DNA from: a virus
Length of the DNA stretch: 64,000 bases
Reading direction: 5' to 3' (one strand)
IMG/VR virus record: IMGVR_UViG_3300042371_001161
Coordinates: 1-64,000 of that record
A model generated the notes under the pieces. The model was given only the letters and a program-made list of their open reading frames with translations. It was not told the origin of the DNA and did not search any database. Position 1 is the stretch's first letter. Each line of letters starts with the position of its first letter. Shown here in pieces: positions 9,088 to 54,126 of this stretch. The position numbers and the translations under genes were made by a program.

Positions 9088-12113
<3,026 letters not shown>

Positions 12114-12114
<1 letters not shown>

Positions 12115-12482
12115 TGCCCTTGACACAGAAAAGACTTGTCGGACCAGCAGCATTTGCTACGTCTGCAGCAGATATATACACCGTGCCATATAATGCTGGA
12201 TACGTAACGACGGTTGTAATTAAAGAAATTATTTTGTGCAACACGTCTGCTTCCGCACAAACAGTAACGCTATATCTAAAGCCATACGGAGTAACTGTAG
12301 CAAGTTCGCACATTTTTATTAACTCGCTAACACTTGCAGCTAACGAAACAGTGACATTGTCAACTTCAATGGTATTAACAAATAATAATAATACTGCCGG
12401 AGATACATATTCAGATAAAATACGAGGACTAGCAAGCGCAGTAACCGTCAACTATATTTTGAATGGATACGAGGAATACTAA
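12114..12482 (+). CDS. Small beta-rich fibre-associated protein
   Basis: 122 residues of alternating hydrophobic and Thr/Ser strands (VTTVVIKEIILCNTSASAQT, then VTLYLKPYG, LAANETVTLSTS) with no catalytic motif. Small jelly-roll-like virion proteins of this type occur next to phage fibres. The stop of the collagen-like gene and this start share one base (TAATG), with GGAGG ten bases before, so the two are translationally coupled and may be in one fibre. I do not recognise the family by name. Confidence 0.65.
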
Positions 12483-12483
12483 A

Positions 12484-13302
12484 ATGGGAAAGTTCATTTT
12501 TACGAATGGAGGTGGTCTGAGCATTGCTTCTGGACCATCAACAACGTCAAAAGCGAACTCCAATTTGACCGGCTTTCTTGACGCACCAGACCCAGTTTAC
12601 GGTTCTGCTGCGCACGGAACGGCAACGCTAAACACAACAACTGGCGCTGCGGGAACGTATTCAGTAGCTGCAACTTCGTTAGGACTCACGTACTCCGCTG
12701 GTCCGCCAATTGTGTTCACCATGACGCAGGACATATTTGCATTTAATTTGATAATTGCAGACAACGTTAGATTAAATCCAGCAGGGTATAGAATTTTTGT
12801 TCAAAATGTTTTAACGCTTGGTGATGGTTCAATCATTGGCCACACCGCAGGATTTTCAACCGATGGTTCCATTAAGCAAGGAGGTGCAGCAGCCAGCGCG
12901 GCATTAGTGCATAGTCTCGGCGGCTCGAGTGCAACGGCTGGAGCAGCTGCACCAACCGCACCTACGGGTGGGACCGACTACTATAAGCAACCTTTTCAAG
13001 CAATCAAGGGCTATTCGATTACGGCAACGTCAACTACTCCGTCACCTCTACGTGGAGGAGCTGGGGGCGCAACGGGAGCGGGCGGCGGAGTAATAATTTT
13101 AGCAGCGCGATATATCGGTCTTTCTAGTGGCACGGCAACTGCATCTATTAAAGCGCCTGGCACTTCTGGCACAGGCGGAGGAGGCGGTGGAGTAATTATT
13201 GTTGTTTCATCCGCTGGAGCTTTGCCTGCCAACGTATCAACAGACGTTACTGGTGGAACTAGCTGCAATGCGGGTACATATATCTATTCGCAGGTAGTAT
13301 AA
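12484..13302 (+). CDS. Gly-rich adhesin-like fibre protein
   Basis: 272 residues from the ATG at 12484, chosen over an upstream start at 12463 because GAGGA sits eight bases before it and the upstream start lies inside the previous gene. The middle is a beta-solenoid-like stretch (NLIIADNVRLNPAGYRIFVQ). The C-terminal third is studded with Gly clusters alternating with short hydrophobic strands (GGGVIILAARYIGL, then a run of six Gly before VIIV). Gly-rich motifs of this kind form polyglycine-II sandwiches in the gp38 adhesins of some T-even phages, so receptor binding at a fibre tip is a reasonable inference. The next gene encodes a relative with the same plan. Confidence 0.65.
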   Translation: MGKFIFTNGGGLSIASGPSTTSKANSNLTGFLDAPDPVYGSAAHGTATLNTTTGAAGTYSVAATSLGLTYSAGPPIVFTMTQDIFAFNLIIADNVRLNPAGYRIFVQNVLTLGDGSIIGHTAGFSTDGSIKQGGAAASAALVHSLGGSSATAGAAAPTAPTGGTDYYKQPFQAIKGYSITATSTTPSPLRGGAGGATGAGGGVIILAARYIGLSSGTATASIKAPGTSGTGGGGGGVIIVVSSAGALPANVSTDVTGGTSCNAGTYIYSQVV

Positions 13303-13303
13303 A

Positions 13304-14947
13304 ATGGCGATTAAAAGAACAAACAGACCTATTGTTCAAAGAGAAGGCGGAGACGCCATCTTTGGGGAAGGCACAGACAGCGACGTCACCATAGCTAGTG
13401 GAACTACGACCTTAACCAAGGACATGTACTACAACAACCTGACGGTCAACTCTGGCGCAACGTTGTTTACAAATGGCTTTCGTGTATTTGTGAAAGGAAC
13501 TTTCACAAACAACGGAACAGTCGGGATGCCCACCGCAACTGAACACTCTGTGGCAGACGGCAGCGGCACGATTGCCGGAAGACAGAACGCCCTTAACCCA
13601 GCAAAAGCGTGGGGCACAAGTACAGACCCATTGTCAGTTACAGATATTTATGACCTAGATGATGCAGTATCTGGCTGGTTTATTACTGCCGCTGGAACAA
13701 TTACCAAAATTGGCGGAGGTTCACTAGGTACTGCCGGCGCTGCTGGAACAACTCTTGCAAACCCAGGAGCAGGTGGAGCTGGCAACGCCGGAACCTTCCC
13801 TGGAGCCTCGACGGGGCAAGCCGGTGGCGCGGGAAACGCAGGCAATCCTGGAAACCCCGCAGTTCCTGGTGCTGGCGGCGCGGGTGGTCTTGGCGGCGGA
13901 TTAGTTATTATATTCGCTAAAACAATTGCTGGTTCTGGGACTATAGTAAGTCAAGGACGCGCCGGGTCTGCTGGGAGTTCGCCTACGCCAGGTGCCTCTG
14001 GCAACTTGGGCAACTCGGCGCCCGGCATAACTGGCTACCATACTTCAGGTTCTTACCACCACCCCGCAGGGTCAACAGGGCCAAACCCTGGTGCAGGAAA
14101 CCCACACCCGGCAGGCCATAATCCCCACGTCGCAGGGAACCCGCACCCAGCAGGGCATAATCCTCATTCGCCAGGAAACCCGCACCCGGCTGGGCATAAT
14201 CCACATGTTGCAGGGAATCCCCACCCAGCAGGACATAATCCGCACGTTGCAGGAAACTATCATGGGTCAGGCACGCACACCAGTGCGCACAACCCCAATA
14301 CGCATACTTATTGGTCAAACCACAACGCAACATACAACGGCAACCATGTCCCCGCGCTGCACTTTGCACACGGAAATACTGGCACTGGCGGACTTGCGAA
14401 TCACAATGGGACAGTAAACAAAGGCGGAAATCACAACCCTGGCAGTGGTCACTCGCCTGCGGTCCATAATCCTGGCAATCACAATAGTGGGCACGGCAGC
14501 CACCACCACCCGGCGGGCCATAATCCTCACGTTGCAGGGAACCCGCACCCGGCGGGCCATAATCCTCACGTTGCAGGGAACCCGCACCCAGCAGGGCATA
14601 ACCCCCATGTCCCAGGAAATCCGCATCCGGCAGGGCATAACCCCCATGTCCCAGGAAATCCCCACGCAGCAGGACATAACTCGGGAACGCACCCGCACAC
14701 TGCAGCAACGGTCAACTCTTCAACAGGTGCGGTGACGAGCAATAAAGCTGCCGCCCCCACCAGTACTGCCACCAATGCAAACTACACGGGCGGAACTGGA
14801 GGTTCAGCTGGCACAGCTGGAACAGCTAACCCAGGAGCTCCTGGGGCTACGGGTTCAACTGGTGGAATAGTTGTTGTAGCTAGAAACACTGGCAACGCCG
14901 CAAGTCAAATTGGACATTCGAATTATTCTAAAGTAATAGACATATAA
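13304..14947 (+). CDS. His-rich repeat fibre protein
   Basis: 547 residues. Residues 1 to ~235 match the plan of the preceding protein (beta-solenoid start, LTVNSGATLFTNGFRVFVKG, then Gly-rich strands with GGGLVIIFAK). Residues ~250-465 are a His/Gly/Pro/Asn stretch built mostly from a 13-residue unit GNPHPAGHNPHVA, with about 47 His. The last ~75 residues return to Ala/Gly-rich sequence ending in TGGIVVVARNTG. The ATG at 13304 has AGGT nine bases upstream. The His lattice could bind Zn, Ni, Cu or Fe, or serve as a substrate for the oxygenases encoded next door; neither is shown. A virion adhesin is the likeliest role. Confidence 0.75.
   Translation: MAIKRTNRPIVQREGGDAIFGEGTDSDVTIASGTTTLTKDMYYNNLTVNSGATLFTNGFRVFVKGTFTNNGTVGMPTATEHSVADGSGTIAGRQNALNPAKAWGTSTDPLSVTDIYDLDDAVSGWFITAAGTITKIGGGSLGTAGAAGTTLANPGAGGAGNAGTFPGASTGQAGGAGNAGNPGNPAVPGAGGAGGLGGGLVIIFAKTIAGSGTIVSQGRAGSAGSSPTPGASGNLGNSAPGITGYHTSGSYHHPAGSTGPNPGAGNPHPAGHNPHVAGNPHPAGHNPHSPGNPHPAGHNPHVAGNPHPAGHNPHVAGNYHGSGTHTSAHNPNTHTYWSNHNATYNGNHVPALHFAHGNTGTGGLANHNGTVNKGGNHNPGSGHSPAVHNPGNHNSGHGSHHHPAGHNPHVAGNPHPAGHNPHVAGNPHPAGHNPHVPGNPHPAGHNPHVPGNPHAAGHNSGTHPHTAATVNSSTGAVTSNKAAAPTSTATNANYTGGTGGSAGTAGTANPGAPGATGSTGGIVVVARNTGNAASQIGHSNYSKVIDI
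14086..14690 (+). repeat. 39-base His-rich coding repeats
   Basis: Two clusters of a 39-base in-frame repeat (about 14086-14270 and 14505-14690), each unit encoding GNPHPAGHNPHVA with small changes (HSPG, HVPG, HAAG). A non-repetitive but still His-rich spacer lies between. The units are contiguous and keep frame, so this is a protein repeat and not a CRISPR array. Confidence 0.92.
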
Positions 14948-15009: not shown

Positions 15010-15258
15010 ATGGCTTTATTTGATTCATTAACTAAAGAAATGAAATTGCAAGCAATAGAGATGCGAATCATGTCCCTAACTACGCAACTTTACGGTCTTT
15101 TAATTGCCGTAGGACTTGACCCAGAAGAAGTAAATCTAGATACTTTAAATCCTGAAACCGACCTCGATGAAAGATACTTGGGTTATGCCTCGGAAATTGT
15201 TCTGCTCAAAGGACAAATTAGTCATGCAGAAGAAATGCGCGAGAGAGTTGCTGCGTGA
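15010..15258 (+). CDS. Small helical protein, paralogue A, before an oxygenase
   Basis: 82 residues from the ATG at 15010 (AAGGAG five bases upstream; a GTG two codons earlier is less likely). Almost wholly helical, with a central LYGLLIAVGLDPEEV segment and an acidic second half. The 79-residue protein at 19247 has the same arrangement (IYLLALLSGMDPDTL), so the two are paralogues, and both come directly before a 2-oxoglutarate oxygenase gene. The stop overlaps the GTG of the next gene (GTGA), implying coupled translation. It may be a partner or carrier subunit for the oxygenase. Family not recognised. Confidence 0.65.
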   Translation: MALFDSLTKEMKLQAIEMRIMSLTTQLYGLLIAVGLDPEEVNLDTLNPETDLDERYLGYASEIVLLKGQISHAEEMRERVAA

Positions 15259-15845
15259 AAAAAACAGAACGAGCTATTGGCATCATCGAGTACAGTGATG
15301 TTTTTGATGCCGAAAAGTTCATTCCCATGCTCGAGCAAGAATGTAGCCAAGCCTGGGGATATTTGCATTGGGAAAGGTCAACCGTAGGCGACGGCTTCGT
15401 CGCGCCCATAAGAACATCTATGAGCTGCGAACTAAGTCCTCTAGGTGTTGAAGACATAGCCGTAGAGAGAGTGATTCCTCTTGCAAAATCATGGCTAAAC
15501 CTCTGGAAGGATATAGACCCAACTGTCTGGGACTACCGTAGTCAATTTGAATTAGACCTTGAAACCGACGAAGGTTACAGGGTTCTTAAATACGGCGGTG
15601 GGGCGGGATACAAAGCTCATCACGACCACTTTCGTAGCAACTCAAGAAGTATTAGTCTGGTGGCTTTTTTGAACGATGGATATAGTGGAGGCGAGCTAGT
15701 ATTCCCGCGTTTTGATGTGACAATTACACCCAAGGCTGGAAGTCTAGTAATATTTCCTTCCAATTTTCCGTACATACATATAGCTCAGCCTGTTGGAAAA
15801 GATGATGAAACAATCAAATACTCTTTGGTGACGTGGTTTAGATGA
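15255..15845 (+). CDS. 2-oxoglutarate/Fe(II) oxygenase, prolyl-4-hydroxylase-like
   Basis: 196 residues with the complete iron site of the family: H122-x-D124 in YKAHHDHF, a distal H175 in YIHIAQPV and K188 where 2-oxoglutarate would be held. FLNDGYSGGELVFP and TPKAGSLVIFPSN are the usual strands between. The family hydroxylates prolyl and other side chains in proteins. The closest potential substrates in this genome are the collagen-like and His-rich fibres encoded just upstream, but free amino acids or metabolites are also possible. GTG start at 15255, coupled by overlap to the small protein before it and by ATGA to the one after. Confidence 0.85.
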   Translation: MKKTERAIGIIEYSDVFDAEKFIPMLEQECSQAWGYLHWERSTVGDGFVAPIRTSMSCELSPLGVEDIAVERVIPLAKSWLNLWKDIDPTVWDYRSQFELDLETDEGYRVLKYGGGAGYKAHHDHFRSNSRSISLVAFLNDGYSGGELVFPRFDVTITPKAGSLVIFPSNFPYIHIAQPVGKDDETIKYSLVTWFR

Positions 15846-16009: not shown

Positions 16010-16268
16010 TCTTGAACAAGATTTTTTATACAATCAAAACAACCTATTCGCCACATTGGAAACAATTGGCTTGGATTGTGAATTAATAGACACCTACACG
16101 TTGGGTCAAGTTTTAGAGCAATGTACGGCAGTGTATGGTTCGTCAGAATACGACAAAAGCTCTGCATCAGAAGGCGAGCGTTACGCATCATTGCGTCGAG
16201 CACAAATAAATGTTCGCAGATTCTGGTATTATTACACGCTTTTGAAATGGAGAATGCAAAATGTTTAA
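15999..16268 (+). CDS. Small helical hypothetical protein
   Basis: 89 residues, helical, with a Tyr/Trp-rich end (RRFWYYYTLLKWRM). Its layout (a helical pair, a polar middle, then a basic helix) recalls the two small proteins at 15010 and 19247, though sequence similarity is weak. It overlaps the short frame before it by 11 bases and the next gene by eight. Likely an accessory protein of the island; no function can be read from it. Confidence 0.6.
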   Translation: MTYNLEQDFLYNQNNLFATLETIGLDCELIDTYTLGQVLEQCTAVYGSSEYDKSSASEGERYASLRRAQINVRRFWYYYTLLKWRMQNV

Positions 16269-16983
16269 GCAGAATCCAAATTTATACGATATTAGTTTAC
16301 TAAGTAAGTTATTGAGCAACGCTCCTGGGGCCGACTATAGCGTTCAGGAAATATCTGCCTTTTGTCAAAGTGCCCTATCGGAAGAGTTGGAATCTGGAGT
16401 CGACAGAAGCCGTCAGGCAATTGGATTTTTAACTACTTTAAATTATTTAGAATACTTATCGCCGTCAGATAGCGTTTCACATGACGTGGCCGCTATGCAC
16501 TTTTTGATGGTCGAAATGCTCGTAGCCTTGCTGAAGCCTTCAAAAATATTACTTGCGCCATTTGTCTACAAGGGCCTTGACGCTAATTATCCTCTTTTTG
16601 CAGAGAATGACGTTTCTGAAGTGCACGTAATGAACCTGCCAGTTCTTGATTACATTGAACGCTATTGGGGTATTAATGTTTCTGACGAGCAGACCATTCG
16701 CATGCAGGACATCCAAGATGGCAACTTTGATAATGACTACAACCTTATTGTTACCTACTTGGAAAACTTTTGCCATGACGACCAAATGCTAAACGGCATA
16801 GTGGACCATCTGGCTAGTGGTGGTGCGCTGTTACTAATGGCAACCAATGACCTCGGCAGCCTGTACGTTAATCAGGAAGCCCATCCATACTATCAGCCTC
16901 ACCAGATTATGTCTCAAAGAGAAGATGTGCTAACTTTTCATTTACCTTTTGCACTTGGGTACACATTGGTAATTAAAAAATGA
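16261..16983 (+). CDS. Methyltransferase-like protein (Rossmann fold, degenerate)
   Basis: 240 residues. The first ~90 are helical, as in many O-methyltransferases. Then come a strand and acid series, a NDYNLIVTYLENFC segment and LASGGALLLMATND, which match motif II and the post-III loop of SAM methyltransferases. The Gly-rich motif I is not clear, with LLAPFVYKGLDANY in its place, so SAM binding is uncertain. The gene overlaps both neighbours (eight bases before, four bases with the halogenase gene). It may methylate the same target as the halogenase or have become a scaffolding protein. Confidence 0.5.
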   Translation: MFKQNPNLYDISLLSKLLSNAPGADYSVQEISAFCQSALSEELESGVDRSRQAIGFLTTLNYLEYLSPSDSVSHDVAAMHFLMVEMLVALLKPSKILLAPFVYKGLDANYPLFAENDVSEVHVMNLPVLDYIERYWGINVSDEQTIRMQDIQDGNFDNDYNLIVTYLENFCHDDQMLNGIVDHLASGGALLLMATNDLGSLYVNQEAHPYYQPHQIMSQREDVLTFHLPFALGYTLVIKK

Positions 16984-18455
16984 ACCAAAAGAAAATAATT
17001 GTTGTTGGTTCAGGTACTGCAGGACTAGTGACTGCATTGATAATTAAATCAGTAATGCCGGCGTACGAAGTAATTATTGTGTCCTCTAGTAAGAGAGGCA
17101 TCATTGGGGTCGGCGAAGGCTCAACCGAGCATTGGCAGTTATTCCAAAACATAGTAGGCATAGATGTTGATGACATGGTGAGAAACGCAGACATCACACA
17201 TAAGTACGGTATCCGTTATGAAAATTGGACCAATCATACCCCTGATTATTTTCATAGCGTAGGAGGTACGGGCTTGCAGAGCAATACTTTTTGGGGAAGC
17301 TATGCTTACGCTTTAGAAAATGATTTACTACTGACTAACACTTTCTCTTGGCGGGGATTAGTCGACAACATGGTAGTTGATAATGGGCCGGACGTACACC
17401 GTGGAACAAATCAGTATCATTTCGACACTTTCAAATTAAATAAATATCTAACAAATATAGCTGCAAGTAAGGGAATTGTATTTATAGACGACGAAGTTGC
17501 AGACGTTTCTGTTGAAAAAAATGGTTTTATTGGTAGTGTCTTTCTGAAAAGCGCACAAAAAGACATTTGTGGTGATTTTTTTATAGACGCAACTGGGTTT
17601 CATAGAGAGATACTAAGCAAGATAGCTGATAAGACTTTTATTTCTTATCGTAAGTTCTTGCCTTGCGACAAGGCCATTGCATTTCCCACGGAGTCAGAAG
17701 AATCTGGGCAAATAAGGCCATATACGAGAGCACGGGCACTCAAGAATGGCTGGATGTGGGAAATACCAACTCAATCTCGTCGTGGCAACGGTTATGTTTT
17801 TGCATCTGATTTCTGCTCACCAGAACAAGCTATTGAGGAAGCTTCAGAAGCGCACGGTTTCCAAGTGGAGCCAGCTAAAGTTGTCGACTTTAATTCTGGA
17901 TATTTTAAGGAAACATGGAAGAATAATTGTGTCGCCGTTGGCTTGGCAGCGGGTTTTGTCGAACCCCTGGAGGCCACTTCTATTTCTACGACTATCCAAC
18001 AGGCAAGATTGATTTGTTCATATTTGCCGACATTCTCAGAAGAGAGAATGTATGGCATTAAAGAATATCATCGTGTAGTCGATTCAATAATGGAAAATAT
18101 TCTATGCATGATTTCTTTGCACTATATGTCCGACAGAACAGATTCAGAAATGTGGAGAGCACAGAGTAAATCAGAAAAGCCAGAGCTTCTGCAACATCTG
18201 TTAAATATTTGGAACGAAAGATGCCCAGAAAGTCACGACGTACCTTTTACTGGATTTGAGCTCTTTACTGCGGCGCACTTGTGGCACGTAGCTCAAGGGC
18301 AGGGCGTCCTGAATAAGCAAGTTGCCAGCATACAGCTTGATGCATATGCGTCAAGAAAAAATACTAGTGAAGACATATCCAACTATTCAAAATCATTACT
18401 CAAGCAAAGGTTGATAGGTCATGCGCAAGCGCTCAAGAACACTCGAAATAGTTAG
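16980..18455 (+). CDS. Flavin-dependent halogenase (tryptophan halogenase family)
   Basis: 491 residues with the diagnostic features: an FAD-binding GSGTAG at residues 10-15, GVGEGSTEHW after it, the catalytic lysine region at K75 in THKYGIRYENW, and the W-x-W-x-I-P motif at 258-263 (WMWEIP). LAAGFVEPLEATSI near 330 is the usual C-terminal flavin loop. The family oxidises chloride, bromide or iodide with FADH2 and O2 and halogenates aromatic rings; a partner flavin reductase is needed and none is visible here. Viral members exist (VirX1 of a cyanophage). The gene overlaps both neighbours, so it belongs to the island operon. Substrate unknown. Confidence 0.88.
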   Translation: MNQKKIIVVGSGTAGLVTALIIKSVMPAYEVIIVSSSKRGIIGVGEGSTEHWQLFQNIVGIDVDDMVRNADITHKYGIRYENWTNHTPDYFHSVGGTGLQSNTFWGSYAYALENDLLLTNTFSWRGLVDNMVVDNGPDVHRGTNQYHFDTFKLNKYLTNIAASKGIVFIDDEVADVSVEKNGFIGSVFLKSAQKDICGDFFIDATGFHREILSKIADKTFISYRKFLPCDKAIAFPTESEESGQIRPYTRARALKNGWMWEIPTQSRRGNGYVFASDFCSPEQAIEEASEAHGFQVEPAKVVDFNSGYFKETWKNNCVAVGLAAGFVEPLEATSISTTIQQARLICSYLPTFSEERMYGIKEYHRVVDSIMENILCMISLHYMSDRTDSEMWRAQSKSEKPELLQHLLNIWNERCPESHDVPFTGFELFTAAHLWHVAQGQGVLNKQVASIQLDAYASRKNTSEDISNYSKSLLKQRLIGHAQALKNTRNS

Positions 18456-19236
18456 TCCAAGAATTTTCAACGACATCCCTAAATTAAAAAAGGGTGAAGT
18501 ATTGTTGGCTCCAGATTCAAGACTTTTAATGGACGACTCGTGTAGACCATACGAAAACTTAGGTAATTGGCCAGAATGGTGGAAGGCACTTAATGGCAAT
18601 GATGCCAGTCTAAAGCGGTGTTCTGGGACGTCAGATTACTTATCAACTGGATTTACAATACCTCTCTGGGCAAAGCTAGAATTTCGCCCTTCATTAGATT
18701 CGCAGAATTGGGATGTAAGATTTGACCTTGCTGGCCACATGGGGAATTTTGGTATTGAAAGTTTTTCATATAATCAAACTGGCAAATGCCCAGTGTCAGA
18801 AATTCGCGCAAGGAAAGAGTCAGGCTACGTAAAAATCGTTAACCCATGGGTGATTAAAACACCTCCAGGTTGGTCGTCACTATTCTTGCCGCCACTATGG
18901 AATCCAAACCCCAACTACACAATTCTGCCTGCAGTGGTCAATACCGATTACTATCACACGGCGAATATCGTAATAAATGTTTTGACTAACGAGCCATTTG
19001 AAATAGAAATAGGAGAACCAATGTGGCATGTTATTCCGTTCCAAAGGAGTAGGTCCAACACTATTGTCTGGGGAGACGAGAGCGCTCATCAACTCTTGCA
19101 TCGAAGAGGTTTTGGTGGAGTCTTCATGCCTCAGAGGCAGAAGAGTAAGTACAAAAAACTGGAACGAGATATTGATGCATCGCTAGATGCCGAAGACCCC
19201 TCAATCTTAGATAAAATTCTAAGACGTAATAGATAG
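18421..19236 (+). CDS. Jelly-roll-like protein of the halogenase island
   Basis: 271 residues. TPPGWSSLFLPPLWNPNP followed by AVVNTDYYH and FEIEIGEPMWHVIPF is the pattern of a group of cupin-like proteins of unknown function (DUF6065-type, from memory) found beside oxygenases and glycosyltransferases in phages. The last ~45 residues are helical and charged. It overlaps the halogenase by 35 bases. It might bind the sugar or peptide substrate of the island. I cannot name a reaction. Confidence 0.55.
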   Translation: MRKRSRTLEIVSPRIFNDIPKLKKGEVLLAPDSRLLMDDSCRPYENLGNWPEWWKALNGNDASLKRCSGTSDYLSTGFTIPLWAKLEFRPSLDSQNWDVRFDLAGHMGNFGIESFSYNQTGKCPVSEIRARKESGYVKIVNPWVIKTPPGWSSLFLPPLWNPNPNYTILPAVVNTDYYHTANIVINVLTNEPFEIEIGEPMWHVIPFQRSRSNTIVWGDESAHQLLHRRGFGGVFMPQRQKSKYKKLERDIDASLDAEDPSILDKILRRNR

Positions 19237-19486: not shown

Positions 19487-19500
19487 TACTGGAGTTGGTG

Positions 19501-20184
19501 ATGAATAGCAAGCCTAGATTTTTCTGGCCATGTGGAAAGTCGTCGGCCATCATGGTTGCCGAATCCATCATTGAAGAAGAACTATGTCAAAGCATAATTA
19601 GTGAGTGCAAAACTCACTACGACAAACTATTCTCTCCAGGTCCAGTCATTAGTGGAATTTTTCCCGATATCAAGTCAAGCATGGATATGAGTTGGTCGGA
19701 CGGAGAAGTAATTAGGCTTGGCGCCCCATCTATGCCATTTCTTAATTATGAAGGTCAGGTAGTAGACGCGTTATTTAGTTCTATTGAATACTACAGAGAA
19801 ACCTTTAGATGGCTATGGGAATGGCCGGGCCTGTCGGATACTGGGTTTAGACTGCAGCATTATCGCAAGAACAGTGGGTTTTATCGAGAGCACATAGACG
19901 GCGGGCCAGGGCCTGGCGTGGCTGCAGACAGAATGCTTGGGGCTATCATCTACCTAAATACAGTGGAAACTGGCGGGGAAACCTATTTCCGCGAGCATGA
20001 CCTAAAAATTCCAGCAAAAGCAGGCTCAATAGCTTTGTTCCCCGCGTATTGGACGCACCCACATCAGGGTTGTGTTCCTATATCCGATGATAAATGGATT
20101 GTAAGTACGTTCGTTGTTAAAAAAACAGAAGAACAAGAAAACACAACAAAGAGCACCCCAATGCCACAGCTTGATAATGAATGA
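19501..20184 (+). CDS. 2-oxoglutarate/Fe(II) oxygenase
   Basis: 227 residues from the ATG at 19501 (GGAG six bases upstream; two weaker in-frame starts just before it are less likely). The iron site is H131-x-D133 in YREHIDGG with a distal His in WTHPHQG (186 or 188), and K198 is the likely 2-oxoglutarate anchor. IIYLNTVETGGETYF and AKAGSIALFPA are standard prolyl-4-hydroxylase-type strands. The protein ends in a polar tail after residue 207. It overlaps the next gene by eight bases. Substrate unknown; the fibre proteins upstream are candidates. Confidence 0.85.
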   Translation: MNSKPRFFWPCGKSSAIMVAESIIEEELCQSIISECKTHYDKLFSPGPVISGIFPDIKSSMDMSWSDGEVIRLGAPSMPFLNYEGQVVDALFSSIEYYRETFRWLWEWPGLSDTGFRLQHYRKNSGFYREHIDGGPGPGVAADRMLGAIIYLNTVETGGETYFREHDLKIPAKAGSIALFPAYWTHPHQGCVPISDDKWIVSTFVVKKTEEQENTTKSTPMPQLDNE

Positions 20185-20800
20185 ATTTTATGACCACGAA
20201 TCTGGTAGGACGCTGCAAGAAAGACCAGAAGCCTACATTTTAGATAAAGTTTTTGACCCAGAATATTTTTCTGAACTAAAAGAATCGCTCGCGCTAATTA
20301 GAGAAAATAATGTTCTTCCGTATACCTTGGAGCTTGGGCGGAGCGGTATAAATACATTAGATAAGAGCTTTGGAGCCGATGTTCTTAATGGCGCTTTTGA
20401 TAAGGTCGTCGCAACGGCGCGTTCTATTTTTGGTCAAGACGTGAAGCCAACTTATGCCCTATGGGTGGCCTATAGGGGCTTTCGGGCTAGTCTTCCACGT
20501 CATATAGATGATAATGCTTGCACCTATACGATTGACTTATGCATGTCCTATGAGACACAGTGGCCCATTTGTATCGAAGGGAAAGAGCTACTTCTTGAAC
20601 CAAATCAAGCTGCAGTATATTACGGCGAAGACCAGTACCACTGGAGGGGTGAATTCCCTAGCCCGTTAAAAAATGAAGTGCAAATGATTTTTTTCCATTT
20701 TGCTGAGCCAGACCACTGGTTCTTCACTAAGGGTCCGCAGCACAAGCAGGAAATAGTTCGTATAAAAGAAGAACATCAAAGAAGGAACGGTATAAAGTAA
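20177..20800 (+). CDS. 2-oxoglutarate/Fe(II) oxygenase-like protein
   Basis: 207 residues from the ATG at 20177; an upstream start at 20114 would lie deep in the previous gene and adds only a basic low-complexity leader. PRHIDDNACTYTIDLC gives H109-x-D111 and GEDQYHWRG gives a distal H155, which together make a plausible iron site, but the 2-oxoglutarate anchor is not obvious. The protein is less typical than the other two of the island. It could hydroxylate an amino acid, peptide or sugar. Confidence 0.65.
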   Translation: MNEFYDHESGRTLQERPEAYILDKVFDPEYFSELKESLALIRENNVLPYTLELGRSGINTLDKSFGADVLNGAFDKVVATARSIFGQDVKPTYALWVAYRGFRASLPRHIDDNACTYTIDLCMSYETQWPICIEGKELLLEPNQAAVYYGEDQYHWRGEFPSPLKNEVQMIFFHFAEPDHWFFTKGPQHKQEIVRIKEEHQRRNGIK

Positions 20801-20805
20801 GTTAC

Positions 20806-21102
20806 ATGAGTAAAGTTGTTCAGTTCAGTCAAAAGATAGTCGATGCTGTCAAAATGATGTCCAAGAAAGAATATTGGAATCGTCCCAATGCCGTCGAGGC
20901 GTGGGGTTTTGCAACAAAGATTCTCATTATTTTTCCTGGCCTACTTCTGGGCAAGCAGTGGTGGTGGCTGTACATTTTCGCCATTATTTCGAGTACGGCG
21001 CTAATTTGGTCATCTACTAAGAAAACACTGCCGACTATTATTCTATTCAACGTTGCCTGGGTCATCTTAGCAACTGCTTCGATTGTGAAGCATTTCGTAT
21101 GA
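20806..21102 (+). CDS. Small membrane protein
   Basis: 98 residues. Three hydrophobic segments are visible after a ~30-residue cytoplasm-like start: around 33-47, 53-67 and 76-92, the first two separated by GKQWWW. No signal peptidase site. It lies between the last oxygenase and a methyltransferase and overlaps the latter by four bases (ATGA). It could be a membrane anchor for the island enzymes, a lipid-sugar handling protein or a holin-like protein; nothing in the sequence decides. Confidence 0.6.
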   Translation: MSKVVQFSQKIVDAVKMMSKKEYWNRPNAVEAWGFATKILIIFPGLLLGKQWWWLYIFAIISSTALIWSSTKKTLPTIILFNVAWVILATASIVKHFV

Positions 21103-21716
21103 GACTACACACGCAATATTCATACAACGAAGAGTTCTCCAAAAAACTTGCTTTTGAATTTACTGTTGTAGGTTCAGATAAATCATCACATCATGGGTAC
21201 GAGGATGTGTATTCACACCTGTTGTCCGGTATGTCTCCGAAATCCTTTTTGGAGATTGGTCTTTTTCTTGGAGAGACTCGCAGTACTGACCTCTTTGCTT
21301 GGGAGCAGATGTTTCCTGACGCAAAAATTTATGGAGCAGACATAAAGTCTCACCTACTTTTCAAGAGTGGGAATATTCAGACATTCTTTGTTGACCAGTC
21401 GCGACCGGAAACTTTCTTGGACTTAAAGAACTCGATTGGCAACAAGGTTGACATCATTCTGGACGACGCTTCGCATGTTTTTGATTTGACAATTTCCACA
21501 TTTGAAAACATGTTTGATTTCCTTGAAGATGATGGCATTTATCTCATAGAGGATATCCTTTACGAGAACTACAACATGGATAGTTGGGAACAGCGCTCAT
21601 CTGAATTGAAAGAATATTTTGACAAAACTGGCCTTTCTTACGACATGTATGCAACATCAAAAATTCATTCCTGTGTAGATAGTGTTGTTTTGGCGGTATC
21701 AAAGGAGAAACAATGA
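21099..21716 (+). CDS. Class I methyltransferase, antibiotic O-methyltransferase-like
   Basis: 205 residues. The start DKSSHHGYEDVYSHLL and SFLEIGLFLGETRS form the combined acceptor and motif I region seen in the mycinamicin/cephamycin type of O-methyltransferase. DAKIYGADIK is motif II and VDIILDDASHVFD is the metal-binding acid and His region. Those enzymes methylate sugar hydroxyls or phenolic groups, which would fit a sugar on a glycan or a halogenated aromatic ring. Overlaps both neighbours by four bases, so it is in the island operon. Confidence 0.8.
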   Translation: MRLHTQYSYNEEFSKKLAFEFTVVGSDKSSHHGYEDVYSHLLSGMSPKSFLEIGLFLGETRSTDLFAWEQMFPDAKIYGADIKSHLLFKSGNIQTFFVDQSRPETFLDLKNSIGNKVDIILDDASHVFDLTISTFENMFDFLEDDGIYLIEDILYENYNMDSWEQRSSELKEYFDKTGLSYDMYATSKIHSCVDSVVLAVSKEKQ

Positions 21717-22771
21717 GATTCCATGTTGTGGGCCTCCCGCATACAAACACCACTGAAGATTTTACGGCTTGCGCATATACAGAGAAAGTCCGTAAGTTCT
21801 GCATCATGATGAAAGACCTTGGGCATACGGTCTTTTTGTATGGTGGCGAGTTCAACGAAGCCCCCTGTGACGAGCAGGTAATGTGCATTACTGAGGAACA
21901 GCGATTAAAAGCCGTGGGCAACAATCACTACTCCGCCGCATCGTTTGATTGGAACCTACCCCATTGGGTCGAGTTCAATAACAATGTCATTAAAGGCATT
22001 CATGAGCGCCTAGAGCACAAAGATTTTATTTGCCTTATCGCAGGCTATGCCTCTAAGCCAATTGCTGACGCATTCCCCAATGAACTAAGCGTGGAATTCG
22101 GAATAGGTTACGGTGGTTCATTCTCTGAATACAAAGTTTTTGAATCATATGCGTGGATGCACGCTTGCTATGGTTCCAAGGTCACCGACCCACATACATT
22201 GGATGGCAAGTTTTATCACGCCGTAATACCGAGTTATATCGATATTCAAGATTTCCCATTACAAAACGAACCAGACGACTACTATCTTTACATTGGGCGT
22301 CTCACAGAACGCAAGGGTTACATGATAGCTGCAGAGGTCTGCGAATATCTTGGCAAGCGCCTGATTATTGCAGGGCAGGGCACACCACCTAGGTACGGAG
22401 AATACGTCGGGGTAGTAGGAACGGAGGAACGAGCCAAGCTGATGGGTGGAGCAATTGCCACTTTTGCGCCAACTATTTATGTTGAGCCTTTTGGAACCGT
22501 TGCCATAGAAGCAATGGCCTGTGGTTCTCCAGTTATTTCCACCGACTGGGGTGCTTTCACCGAGACAGTTCTTGATGGATTGACAGGATTTAGATGTCAC
22601 ACAATGCAGGAATTCGCGGATGCTACCGAGAAAGTCAAGACTCTTGATAGGTCACTAATCAGCGCTTACGCAAAGGGGCGTTATGGACTGGACACTGTCG
22701 GGCTCATGTACGAAAAGTATTTTACTCGTTTGCAGGGTCTTTGGGGCAAGGGCTTTTACGAACTTTCGTAA
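21713..22771 (+). CDS. GT-B family glycosyltransferase (group 1, GT4-like)
   Basis: 352 residues. The C-domain is typical: YLYIGRLTERKGY, LIIAGQG and the catalytic EPFGTVAIEAMACGSPVI with the E-x7-E pattern. The N-domain starts with FHVVGLPHTNT and includes KDLGHTVFLYGG. Last gene of the island, overlapping the methyltransferase by four bases and ending eight bases from the converging gene at 22780. It probably adds a sugar to a virion protein, a lipid or a surface glycan. Confidence 0.85.
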   Translation: MRFHVVGLPHTNTTEDFTACAYTEKVRKFCIMMKDLGHTVFLYGGEFNEAPCDEQVMCITEEQRLKAVGNNHYSAASFDWNLPHWVEFNNNVIKGIHERLEHKDFICLIAGYASKPIADAFPNELSVEFGIGYGGSFSEYKVFESYAWMHACYGSKVTDPHTLDGKFYHAVIPSYIDIQDFPLQNEPDDYYLYIGRLTERKGYMIAAEVCEYLGKRLIIAGQGTPPRYGEYVGVVGTEERAKLMGGAIATFAPTIYVEPFGTVAIEAMACGSPVISTDWGAFTETVLDGLTGFRCHTMQEFADATEKVKTLDRSLISAYAKGRYGLDTVGLMYEKYFTRLQGLWGKGFYELS

Positions 22772-46118: not shown

Positions 46119-46676
46119 CTATCTGTCGGAATTGGGTGGTCTTTCTATTGAAAGCACTTCTGGGGGCACAGAATTCGGAGGAGCCTCTATCGGAACCCAT
46201 GCTCTAGCGTAATTGTGTTCTTTTATTTTTCTGACTTTGAACAGATTTCCGTCAAGCATTAATGCAAGTTCTTCTGCTCGCATGCAGAGAATGTCCTGGA
46301 AATCGGATGCGCCGTACTTTCCGGAACGCCTGACGGACCTGATGATTTTAGAAGCTTTCTCCGCAATCACGTGTGAATGCCCTCGATTTAGGCGAAGGTG
46401 CATCATCATCGCGTCAACCTGGTCGACGTCATGAAAAACTACTGGAATTTTCCCCTCGGTCTTTTTTAAAATCTGCGGAATACTGGTTGCCAAAATAAAA
46501 CGCTCGGAACCATCAATTATCTCCCCGGTAGATAAGCGAGCATGTATCGGTTGAATGAATCCAAGCTCAGATAGCGATGCTGAAATTATTAACATCTCCG
46601 GACGCAGGGTGTACGTAGCTCGCCACTCAGGAGTAGATAAGCGCGATGGCTCTACGTATTCAATATTAATATTCAT
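46119..46676 (-). CDS. ParB/Srx-like nuclease-domain protein (IbrB-like)
   Basis: 185 residues. The ParB-like fold appears at residues ~15-110: ISASLSELGFIQPIHARL, GEIIDGSERFILA, then VDAMMMHLRLNRGHSH. ELGFIQPI and DGSERF are its core motifs. In E. coli the ParB-like IbrB is encoded beside the PAPS-reductase-like IbrA; here the ParB-like gene overlaps the PAPS-reductase-like gene by 11 bases. No helix-turn-helix is present, so a classical partition role is unlikely. A role in DNA modification or transcription control is inferred from the pairing. Confidence 0.7.
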   Translation of the reverse strand: MNINIEYVEPSRLSTPEWRATYTLRPEMLIISASLSELGFIQPIHARLSTGEIIDGSERFILATSIPQILKKTEGKIPVVFHDVDQVDAMMMHLRLNRGHSHVIAEKASKIIRSVRRSGKYGASDFQDILCMRAEELALMLDGNLFKVRKIKEHNYARAWVPIEAPPNSVPPEVLSIERPPNSDR

Positions 46677-47805
46677 ATATGTCTGCTCTCTCTAGTTCTA
46701 CTGCCCTGACAGTGTGCGCCTTTGTCTTGGGTCCAACTGGTGTTGGAGAGTTAACGTCAATGTCGTTCAGCATCAAATTTCTTATAAGCCAGCTAACTGG
46801 GTACCCGTGTGGGTCTGATAGGTGCTTTTTTCTAAACTTAGAAACATAAGCACGGGCTTCCGTTTGACGTCGTTCGCCCACCAAGTATTGTTCGATGAAA
46901 CTTGATGCACCATCAAATCCAAACTGAGAGTAGATATCAATCAGCTTCTCCGAGTCAAACTCTGGCCAAAGTCTGCGTTGTGCGTCTATGTATGGGAAGC
47001 ACTCGTAAAGCCTGTCGTAGAATTCTGGTTCCGTAGCAATAACGTCTCCAATCCGCCTTATTGCAGTCGCATGCAAGGGGATTCCAACTCGCGTGTTGCT
47101 TCCGGTGATTGTTGCGAGGTCATAGTACTTGCAGTATTCTGCGTCGTGTTCCTCGATGATGAATTTAAAAACATCATCCGTATTCCAGTCATATATGACT
47201 TTGGCGAACTTGAGTGGTATTCCCTTTTTTAACTTGTACGGCGTATTTATGTAATTCTCGTGAAGTTTCTGAACAATCGACCTGTATCTAACCATCGACT
47301 CGCTTGCTCTGACTCCAGTCAGAAAGGCAACATTTCCTTTTTTGCCCTGCATTGTGTAGTAATCGGTCTGTTCAGGCAATGAAACGCTGTGACTTAGTCC
47401 AAAATTCTTGCCGCTGATTGCCCATGGGGGCATCGGTCGCACCCACCTGCCTTGTTCAAATCTTTCTTGACTCCACAGGAGGGTCGTTATCCTGTAACCA
47501 AGAACCCAAATTTCTGCTGGATATGGCAAGCAGTACCACTCCATGTCAACCCAATCGTAGTTGCGGACCCTCTCTACGTAGTCCATGACGACAGGGCTCA
47601 CCATTTCTTCGTCGCGGAAAATCACCTTAACAGGGCCTAGGCCACGCTCTTCGTGGACCTCCTTGGCAAGGAGAAGAACGGCGGTTGAGTCTTTGCCGCC
47701 AGAAAATTGAACACACACCGTGTCAAAGGTGTCGTATACGTGACGTATTCTTTGACGAGCAGCGTCAACGCAGCTCATATCCAAGAACAGGCGTTGACGA
47801 GTCAT
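46666..47805 (-). CDS. PAPS-reductase-like PP-loop protein (IbrA/DndC type)
   Basis: 379 residues. The PP-loop is VQFSGGKDSTAVLLLA at residues ~32-47, followed by VKVIFRDEEMVSP and a conserved W/Y/P-rich region (WVDMEWYCLPYPAEIW). Members of this family (IbrA, DndC) use ATP to activate a substrate, for instance in DNA phosphorothioation. Cys positions for a reductase centre are few, so simple sulphate reduction is unlikely. Overlaps the ParB-like gene and shares a base with the gene before it (TAATG). Phage copies beside ParB-like genes have been seen often. Confidence 0.78.
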   Translation of the reverse strand: MTRQRLFLDMSCVDAARQRIRHVYDTFDTVCVQFSGGKDSTAVLLLAKEVHEERGLGPVKVIFRDEEMVSPVVMDYVERVRNYDWVDMEWYCLPYPAEIWVLGYRITTLLWSQERFEQGRWVRPMPPWAISGKNFGLSHSVSLPEQTDYYTMQGKKGNVAFLTGVRASESMVRYRSIVQKLHENYINTPYKLKKGIPLKFAKVIYDWNTDDVFKFIIEEHDAEYCKYYDLATITGSNTRVGIPLHATAIRRIGDVIATEPEFYDRLYECFPYIDAQRRLWPEFDSEKLIDIYSQFGFDGASSFIEQYLVGERRQTEARAYVSKFRKKHLSDPHGYPVSWLIRNLMLNDIDVNSPTPVGPKTKAHTVRAVELERADIYEY

Positions 47806-52812: not shown

Positions 52813-54126
52813 TTAGAGGAGTATAGAAGCTTTCCTGCGTCTAGGCAACCCCAAGCCGGTAAGAAAAGTAAAAGCCCCAACAGCGGAGTCTACTTGGTCG
52901 TCGTGATTAGCGGACTCGGGGAAAGATGAAAATTCATCAAGGAAATCTGTGAGCCATGGAGCCCTAACTAGGCGAACATTCCCGTTTGCAGCAGATGCAG
53001 CGAATGGACGCGCTCTCGTGACCTTGTCTCCGGTTGGCCTCATAGCTCCAAAATCGTACCCAGGAACCACATATCTGGCGTACTGGTCAACTAGCGCCTT
53101 GCCAGATGAACCAGGCTCCTGCTCCATCCTGACGGCCACTCCGTATCCGTCCTCTGCCGCCGTCTGGGCAATTAGTTGTTCTACTTTCTCGCCCCTTACT
53201 CGTGCTTTTTTGATGTCAAGAATGTACGAAACGCCACCGTCGAACATCATGAGGGTTCCGACTGTCCAGTCAGGGTCAGGGTATGACGCGGTGGGCTCGG
53301 ATGCTGCAAGGTCCCAGAATCTAACGACTCTGGCAGAATTGGTTATGACGGGGATTTCGCTGGGGTCAATAATTATGAAAGATTCGCGGTCAAAAAGGCT
53401 ACCGAGGGTCGTCGACCACCAGTCGCCTTCTTCTAGACGTCGCCGTTCAACGGGGTCTAGGGCAGACAGGGCCTGCCTATATGAATCTGCATCAATTCCT
53501 GGGTTGTCTTTAAGCGTGGATGGAACAAAGACCCGTCCAGTCTCTCTGCCCTCTACGATGAACCGCTGACGAACCCAATTCGGAGCAGGGTTGGATGCCG
53601 CCCTCATCCGAAGCGGAATCTGCGCCAAAGGACCACTTGCGGGACGACGCAGACGAGAGAAAAGGTATCTATAGTCGGATTCTCGGATTTCTGTAACTTC
53701 GTCCATCCCTATGAACTGAAACTCAGAACCTTTGTATCTCAGATAGTCGTTAACGTTATTTAGGTAGCCGAATGAAATGCGAGCCCCAGATGGGAAGGTG
53801 GCCACGAAACTATTGTTATTCCAGTGAACATCGTCATAGTTACTCATCCACGATTTAAAGCGGTCCATCAAGGCACCTGGCAGAGAGAGGTCGGCAAATG
53901 TTCTACGGAAGAGGATTGCTGAATAGCCAGGGACATCCACATACTGTAGGGCGGCCATCAAAAGGGCTGAGGACTTGCCTCCACCAGCCGCCCCACCAAA
54001 GAGACCTTCAAGGCAGTTTGTCCTCAAAAAAACTTTTTGATTCAAAGATGGCTCTTCTGGGCAAAAAGGAGGCAGCTTGGGGCTCAGATACTCTAGAACT
54101 TCTTCCCAGTTAGATTTTGATGCCAT
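52813..54126 (-). CDS. Terminase large subunit
   Basis: 437 residues. Walker A is GGAAGGGKSS at residues 44-53 and Walker B is FIGMDEVTE around 138-146, with a following coupling motif (AASNPAP). The nuclease half has RFWDLAAS, a second acid in VRMEQEPGSSGKAL, and the final HDDQVDS, the three metal-binding acids. It packages DNA through the portal. It is encoded on the strand opposite to the portal, 69 bases from the divergent small membrane protein. No small terminase subunit is evident. Confidence 0.93.
   Translation of the reverse strand: MASKSNWEEVLEYLSPKLPPFCPEEPSLNQKVFLRTNCLEGLFGGAAGGGKSSALLMAALQYVDVPGYSAILFRRTFADLSLPGALMDRFKSWMSNYDDVHWNNNSFVATFPSGARISFGYLNNVNDYLRYKGSEFQFIGMDEVTEIRESDYRYLFSRLRRPASGPLAQIPLRMRAASNPAPNWVRQRFIVEGRETGRVFVPSTLKDNPGIDADSYRQALSALDPVERRRLEEGDWWSTTLGSLFDRESFIIIDPSEIPVITNSARVVRFWDLAASEPTASYPDPDWTVGTLMMFDGGVSYILDIKKARVRGEKVEQLIAQTAAEDGYGVAVRMEQEPGSSGKALVDQYARYVVPGYDFGAMRPTGDKVTRARPFAASAANGNVRLVRAPWLTDFLDEFSSFPESANHDDQVDSAVGAFTFLTGLGLPRRRKASILL

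Follow-up and report, generated by a model that had tools for sequence, protein, structure and literature searches.

A gene for a flavin-dependent halogenase (FDH) lies in a 64,000-nucleotide stretch of viral DNA (positions 1 to 64,000 of IMG/VR record IMGVR_UViG_3300042371_001161; hereafter the window). We found that this FDH, a partner protein of family phrog_7084, 2-oxoglutarate-dependent Fe(II) (2OG) oxygenases and a protein resembling a fibre tip form a conserved, co-travelling cassette. Because the FDH, across many phages, nearly always occurs beside a hypervariable His-rich tip-like protein, the partner and the oxygenases, its sequence context suggests a role in chemically finishing a virion part that probably contacts the host, and not in the synthesis of a drug-like molecule. 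We lean towards the view that it is part of a mobile module for fibre-tip maturation, in which it halogenates or oxidatively crosslinks Tyr, Trp or His residues in the tip. The source DNA is that of a phage: the complete record of 119,748 bp carries tail sheath, portal, terminase and collagen-like tail-fibre genes.

The FDH reading frame is uninterrupted from ATG to stop. Its product scored 335.8 bits (E 5.6e-100) with the Pfam profile PF04820 (Trp_halogenase), whose cut-off is 21, and matched phrog_2928 (tryptophan halogenase) at 1.2e-95, and a sequence search of the PDB retrieved 30 FDH sequences, including VirX1 (6qgm) at 1.4e-39. All of the family hallmarks, namely GxGxxG, WxWxIP and the catalytic Lys and Glu, are present, in VVGSGTAGL (residues 8-16), K75, GWMWEIP (257-263) and FVEPLE, which contains E328. 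When aligned to 8fov, a solved tryptophan 5-halogenase, K75 and E328 fall on K76 and E353. Across an alignment of 107 viral FDH sequences both residues were invariant (107/107), P263 was retained in 98, and GxGxxG and WxWxIP were largely kept. An earlier sequence-only reading of this DNA had described an intact phage FDH with the GSGTAG, K75 and WMWEIP motifs and had pointed to VirX1 as its characterised viral relative, and both statements hold; loss of the lysine in relatives, one of the outcomes that that reading would have counted against itself, was not seen. The gene is thus an FDH of the active type, with predicted halogenating activity.

The substrate-binding motifs of free-tryptophan halogenases, ATFS(D/T).. 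and HPFE.. (PMC8269204), are absent from the window FDH, where STEHWQ and HSVGG occupy the corresponding positions of the alignment. Judged from these residues, its pocket differs from that of the free-tryptophan enzymes. PrnA, RebH and PyrH share with it the fold family, flavin motif, Lys and Glu, and WxWxIP; unlike them, it carries the replaced motifs and lies outside any natural-product cluster. The class C indole and peptide FDHs (MibH, BrvH and Xcc4156) also lack the free-tryptophan motifs, and MibH acts on a peptide. These enzymes are bacterial, however, and the bacterial FDH loci retrieved here lack the partner and the tip.

The evidence for the cassette comes from loci retrieved with each of its members. 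We annotated 80 related viral FDH loci using the window proteins; here and below, locus counts include some near-copies and reflect the best 80 hits per scan. A recurring order emerged: the small gene that starts at 12114 in the window, the two tip-like genes (12463 and 13304), a 2OG oxygenase, optionally a gene of the 16261 type, the FDH, the phrog_7084 partner and a second 2OG oxygenase. When IMG/VR was searched with the 12463 family alone, 79 loci were recovered, and all 53 of those with at least 6.5 kb downstream contained the FDH and the partner (49 on the same strand, 4 on the opposite one). The search with the partner alone gave 80 loci, 78 of which had an FDH, either directly upstream (70, nearly all overlapping) or elsewhere in the locus (8); one of the two remaining loci is cut by a contig end and the other (L192) lacks an FDH. 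The window FDH clade comprises 62 rows, the window and 61 others borne on loci, and among these 61 the partner was found in 59 and the tip in 53. None of the 79 bacterial-genome FDH loci fetched as outgroups (L250-L328) had a partner or a tip. The whole cassette, with a pair of tip genes and a pair of oxygenase genes besides FDH and partner, occurs on a 62-kb contig in a gammaproteobacterial metagenome-assembled genome (L249), which is most likely a phage contig within the bin. The sequence-only reading had suspected a link to fibres, proposing halide assays with "peptides from the fibres", and the reciprocal linkage of FDH and tip-like genes bears this out. We consider a functional association between the FDH and the tip module very probable.

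The gene directly 3' of the FDH encodes a protein whose AlphaFold2 model (predicted local distance difference test score, pLDDT, 92.2) matched dUTPases by Foldseek at E 5e-5 and therefore has a dUTPase fold. A profile of the partner against dUTPase sequences reached 0.0015 over part of the C-terminal half, with the best matches spanning only residues ~168-207. The protein shares the fold of the dUTPase family but differs in its length (271 aa), its added N- and C-terminal parts and its fixed linkage to an FDH. Because 70/80 partner relatives directly follow an FDH, their position suggests a dedicated FDH partner or substrate carrier. Plain tblastn with the partner against cultured phages gave no match, and relatives were found there by profile search only.

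Fibre-tip adhesin genes often sit just after phage tail fibre genes, and the 12463 and 13304 genes lie just 3' of the collagen-like tail fibre gene in the window. From this position and their sequences, we infer that their products form a receptor-contacting tip. The model of tip protein 1 (12463; pLDDT 88.5) resembled viral collagen-like and Caudovirales proteins in BFVD (1e-10 to 2e-5) and had no PDB match by fold or sequence; tip protein 2 (13304) had none in a sequence search, the only kind made for it. A known gp38 fold was accordingly rejected, and the gp38 polyglycine sandwich was not recognised in protein 1 by sequence or fold, or in protein 2 by sequence. The two proteins are like the T-even and S16 gp38-type adhesins in being Gly-rich, hypervariable and located at the end of a fibre gene cluster, and unlike them in having no PDB match and in the window's long His-rich region and modifying enzymes.

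Members of the 13304 family have conserved ends and a hypervariable centre with ~20% His plus Gly, Asn and Pro repeats. In 51 non-redundant relatives the His-rich segment contained 19.5% His, 15% Gly, 10% Asn and 9% Pro; every segment contained at least 2 Tyr, and 28 contained Trp. Trp was rejected as an obligatory target, since 23/51 segments have none; an FDH that acts on the His-rich tip would not need Trp, as all segments have at least 2 Tyr and many His. No strong sequence motif surrounds the Tyr residues, and YW pairs, ~5-fold enriched, are few. Whether the tip protein is the direct substrate of the FDH, with the 13304 product as the candidate, we regard as an even call. The enzyme might instead act on another virion protein, such as a collagen-like fibre, or on a molecule of the host surface that the tip encounters, and a collagen-like gene does lie upstream in the window, in many close loci and in phage DSL-LC01. 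We think this improbable: the collagen-like gene is absent near many cassettes (the window gene at 9103 had a match in 23/82 loci), and the collagen-like repeats in the window hold few aromatic residues.

The cassette keeps its members through changes in arrangement. FDH and partner are inverted onto the other strand beside the tips in L125-L128; the tips come last in L201, L205, L212, L213 and L244 (oxygenase, oxygenase, FDH, oxygenase 2, methyltransferase, partner, tip, tip); and L222 has the order oxygenase, partner, FDH. One phage (G005) has two cassettes in a row (L109/L110), in which a separate FDH and partner accompany each tip. Three genomes of 179.6-193.9 kb (G001-G003) carry another terminase, encoded by an open frame of 635-639 aa that matches PF03237 and is not detected with the window terminase at E 0.001, and their cassettes match that of the window at 72-74% (FDH), 66-67% (partner) and 59-61% (tip). 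Conversely, the backbone of a 158-kb genome (G020) is close to that of the window (terminase 92%, sheath 77%), whereas its cassette is more distant (FDH 47%, partner 42%, tip 57%). We also tried a sheath control based on phrog_77 in 7 records, but it was uninformative, matching 14/14 control genomes as well. Because the histories of cassette and backbone differ in these four genomes, the cassette, with FDH and tip together, has apparently been exchanged as a unit between phages with different terminases.

This bears on whether the FDH is merely a passenger kept beside the tip by shared phage ancestry. Many of the counted loci are indeed closely related to one another. The linkage nevertheless survives reordering of the genes, inversion onto the other strand, duplication of the cassette and changes of backbone, and is therefore more than inherited order; moreover, the partner is also found in the VirX1 clade, which is a separate one. 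Chance neighbourhood is strongly disfavoured and, in our view, highly improbable.

VirX1 is CPUG_00131 of cyanophage Syn10, the second of two tandem FDHs. Upstream lie Gly-rich tail fiber assembly proteins (phrog_863 5e-67; PF21722), and a phrog_7084 partner (1.8e-71) overlaps the VirX1 gene and is followed by 2OG oxygenases. The arrangement in syn9 is the same, and P-TIM40 and Sf-FR1 show a similar pattern. The window matches this context, with fibre genes before the FDH, phrog_7084 directly after it and 2OG oxygenases following, and both enzymes are viral, have the catalytic Lys and Glu and lack the free-tryptophan motifs. They differ in that VirX1 is remote in sequence (1.4e-39), belongs to another clade, stands in a tandem of FDHs and has no tip of the His-rich family. 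In an FDH tree made by a quick method without bootstrap, the window fell in a 62-row clade (100) and VirX1 in a separate 13-row clade (100), with no monophyly of the two. The broad pocket of VirX1 is therefore not simply transferable to the window FDH, and the pairing of FDH and partner near fibres is present in two distant lineages. The sequence-only reading had overlooked the conserved cassette, the dUTPase-fold partner just 3' and the tip protein with its hypervariable His-rich region, as well as the occurrence of the same partner beside VirX1.

Two further phages speak for a link to fibres. S-SRM01 has an FDH between a tail fiber gene and a gene annotated as a gp37-gp38 adhesin tip complex. 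In DSL-LC01 (L335), an Actinomycetia phage from a lake, two collagen-like genes and one virion-structural gene precede the halogenase, which is followed by a glycosyltransferase; this locus lacks the phrog_7084 partner.

Published proposals for phage halogenases are antibiotic protection in cyanophages (PMC2984593), synthesis of a halogenated secondary metabolite or decoration of the capsule (PMC7824862) and alteration of host metabolites (PMC10452541). The two cyanophage proposals favour a role for the FDH in small-molecule halogenation or in the decoration of sugars or capsule, as do the S-SSM7 FDH, which lies amid genes for carbamoyltransferases, for heptose enzymes and for a nucleotide-sugar epimerase, and the glycosyltransferase and methyltransferase downstream in the window. 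Such sugar and small-molecule genes are not conserved, however (a glycosyltransferase in 9/82 loci), whereas the tip and partner are, and the cassette travels with the tip rather than with metabolic genes. For the cassette FDHs we therefore regard this explanation as unlikely. We found no literature linking phage halogenases to fibre proteins, in a search whose coverage mostly excluded subscription journals.

FDHs use FADH2, O2 and a halide to form hypohalite, which a Lys and a Glu steer to an electron-rich ring. In tip maturation as we picture it, the tip protein would be made late in infection and hydroxylated by the 2OG oxygenases, perhaps at Pro, Asn or His. The FDH would take FADH2 from a host flavin reductase and, with O2 and halide, produce hypohalite, which would pass to K75 and, with E328, attack an aromatic side chain of the tip (Tyr, Trp or His). 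The partner would present the tip to the FDH or hold the FDH on the tip. The outcome may be a hardened, metal-binding or more hydrophobic receptor-contacting tip, with a surface diversified beyond the 20 amino acids. In keeping with a host source of reduced flavin, as the sequence-only reading had also noted, no flavin reductase of PF01613 or PF03358 was found in the whole 119,748-bp record, which may be incomplete.

The same module could employ other chemistry: hypohalite from the FDH might oxidise and crosslink the tip (Tyr-Tyr, Tyr-His) and leave no lasting carbon-halogen bond. Every linkage result applies equally to this possibility. The Gly/His-rich tips, with Tyr in 51/51, also recall Nvjp-1 of Nereis jaws, a Gly/His-rich, metal-binding contact material described as halogenated and cross-linked, with a related His-rich protein that binds zinc (PMC13120676); the jaw protein is animal, and we draw an analogy without claiming homology. 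Retention of K75, E328 and WxWxIP, as in true halogenases, argues against purely oxidative hardening, which we likewise consider unlikely.

Several observations weigh against halogenation of the tip. The window FDH clade includes two loci without partner and tip (L019 and L023) and one without tip (L046). The tip assignment is based on position, composition and hypervariability, with a fold that has no PDB match, and no fixed-position aromatic residue or clear target motif was found in the 51 His-rich segments. We know of no halogenated virion protein. Finally, the FDHs of P-SSM2, S-MbCM6, S-B64, HTVC008M and S-SSM7 are not beside fibre genes, and we therefore limit the explanation to partner-bearing FDH lineages. 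The FDHs of L019 and L023 are 54-57% identical to that of the window, with neither partner nor tip in 14-17 kb.

The genes surrounding the FDH are listed in Table 1. The two 2OG oxygenases and the glycosyltransferase share the strand of the FDH, and several neighbouring genes overlap by 4-35 bp. The sequence-only reading had placed the FDH in one operon with oxygenases and a glycosyltransferase; the common strand stands, while promoter and terminator scans around the FDH gave no excess over chance and neither confirm nor refute a single operon. The glycosyltransferase was rejected as a core cassette member, given its low frequency among FDH loci. The phrog_5073 score of the collagen-like gene is inflated by composition because of its low-complexity repeats. 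The gene at 16261 overlaps the FDH start (ATGA), and its product had no family match in Pfam or PHROG searches and evolves fast (25-34% identity in relatives whose FDHs are 47-74% identical).

Table 1. Cassette genes and their neighbours in the window
Feature	Position	Strand	Basis
Collagen-like tail fibre protein, GXT repeats	9103..12114	+	phrog_5073 tail fiber 2e-180
Small conserved gene preceding tip genes	12114..12482	+	phrog_20100; 5' of tip gene in most loci
Gly-rich fibre-tip-like protein 1	12463..13302	+	Conserved family A1/A3; no Pfam family
Gly-rich fibre-tip-like protein 2, hypervariable His/Asn/Gly/Pro repeat region	13304..14947	+	Sequence and 51 non-redundant relatives
2OG-Fe(II) oxygenase 1	15255..15845	+	PF13640 3.4e-15; in 59/82 FDH loci
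Poorly conserved, possibly methyltransferase-like protein	16261..16983	+	Fold inferred from sequence only
Flavin-dependent halogenase (FDH)	16980..18455	+	491 aa; Pfam, PHROG and PDB matches, motifs, tree
dUTPase-fold FDH partner	18421..19236	+	phrog_7084 4e-25, weak DUF6065; 35-bp overlap with FDH end
2OG-Fe(II) oxygenase 2	19495..20184	+	PF13640 9.5e-10
phrog_2954/3531-like protein, labelled ferrochelatase (label only)	20186..20800	+	phrog_2954 3e-13
98-aa hydrophobic protein	20806..21102	+	Found in many cassette loci
Methyltransferase	21099..21716	+	Methyltransf_31 9e-5, below cut-off; phrog_21658 6.7e-13
Glycosyltransferase, not a conserved cassette member	21713..22771	+	Glycos_transf_1 1.6e-16; phrog_3408 1.9e-83

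Elsewhere in the window, a phosphoadenosine phosphosulfate reductase-like gene (46666-47805; phrog_2302 2e-76), of a kind that is a frequent auxiliary gene of phages, lies amid ParB-like genes. The best GenBank phage matches of the terminase (52813-54126) are Methanothermobacter and Gordonia phages at only 43-44%, and by this marker the phage is therefore not closely related to any cultured one.

Viral halogenases are not rare, contrary to the sequence-only reading. Relatives of the FDH were found by tblastn in 65 phage GenBank records and, in one IMG/VR scan with six exact peptides, in 113 stretches, and a review counted FDH genes in 20/153 cyanophages (PMC10452541). Some viral loci (L074-L079, L059, L069 and L072) have four halogenase genes in tandem, whose copies belong to different FDH clades, as if each had a separate target; in L075 and L077-L079 a phrog_7084 protein follows the tandem.

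The cassette provides a concrete, testable substrate candidate, the fibre tip, for viral halogenases including VirX1, in place of guesses about antibiotics, metabolites or capsules, and it names a partner protein that is relevant to future halogenase assays. We propose, tentatively, that a dedicated and horizontally exchanged phage system of FDH, dUTPase-fold partner and 2OG oxygenases halogenates the phage's own receptor-binding tip protein, and that this may also be the native job of VirX1. Tip maturation of this kind predicts halogenated residues in the virions of cultured phages. If true, this would be the first system for halogenating virion proteins, and protein halogenation would join the means by which phages diversify host recognition.
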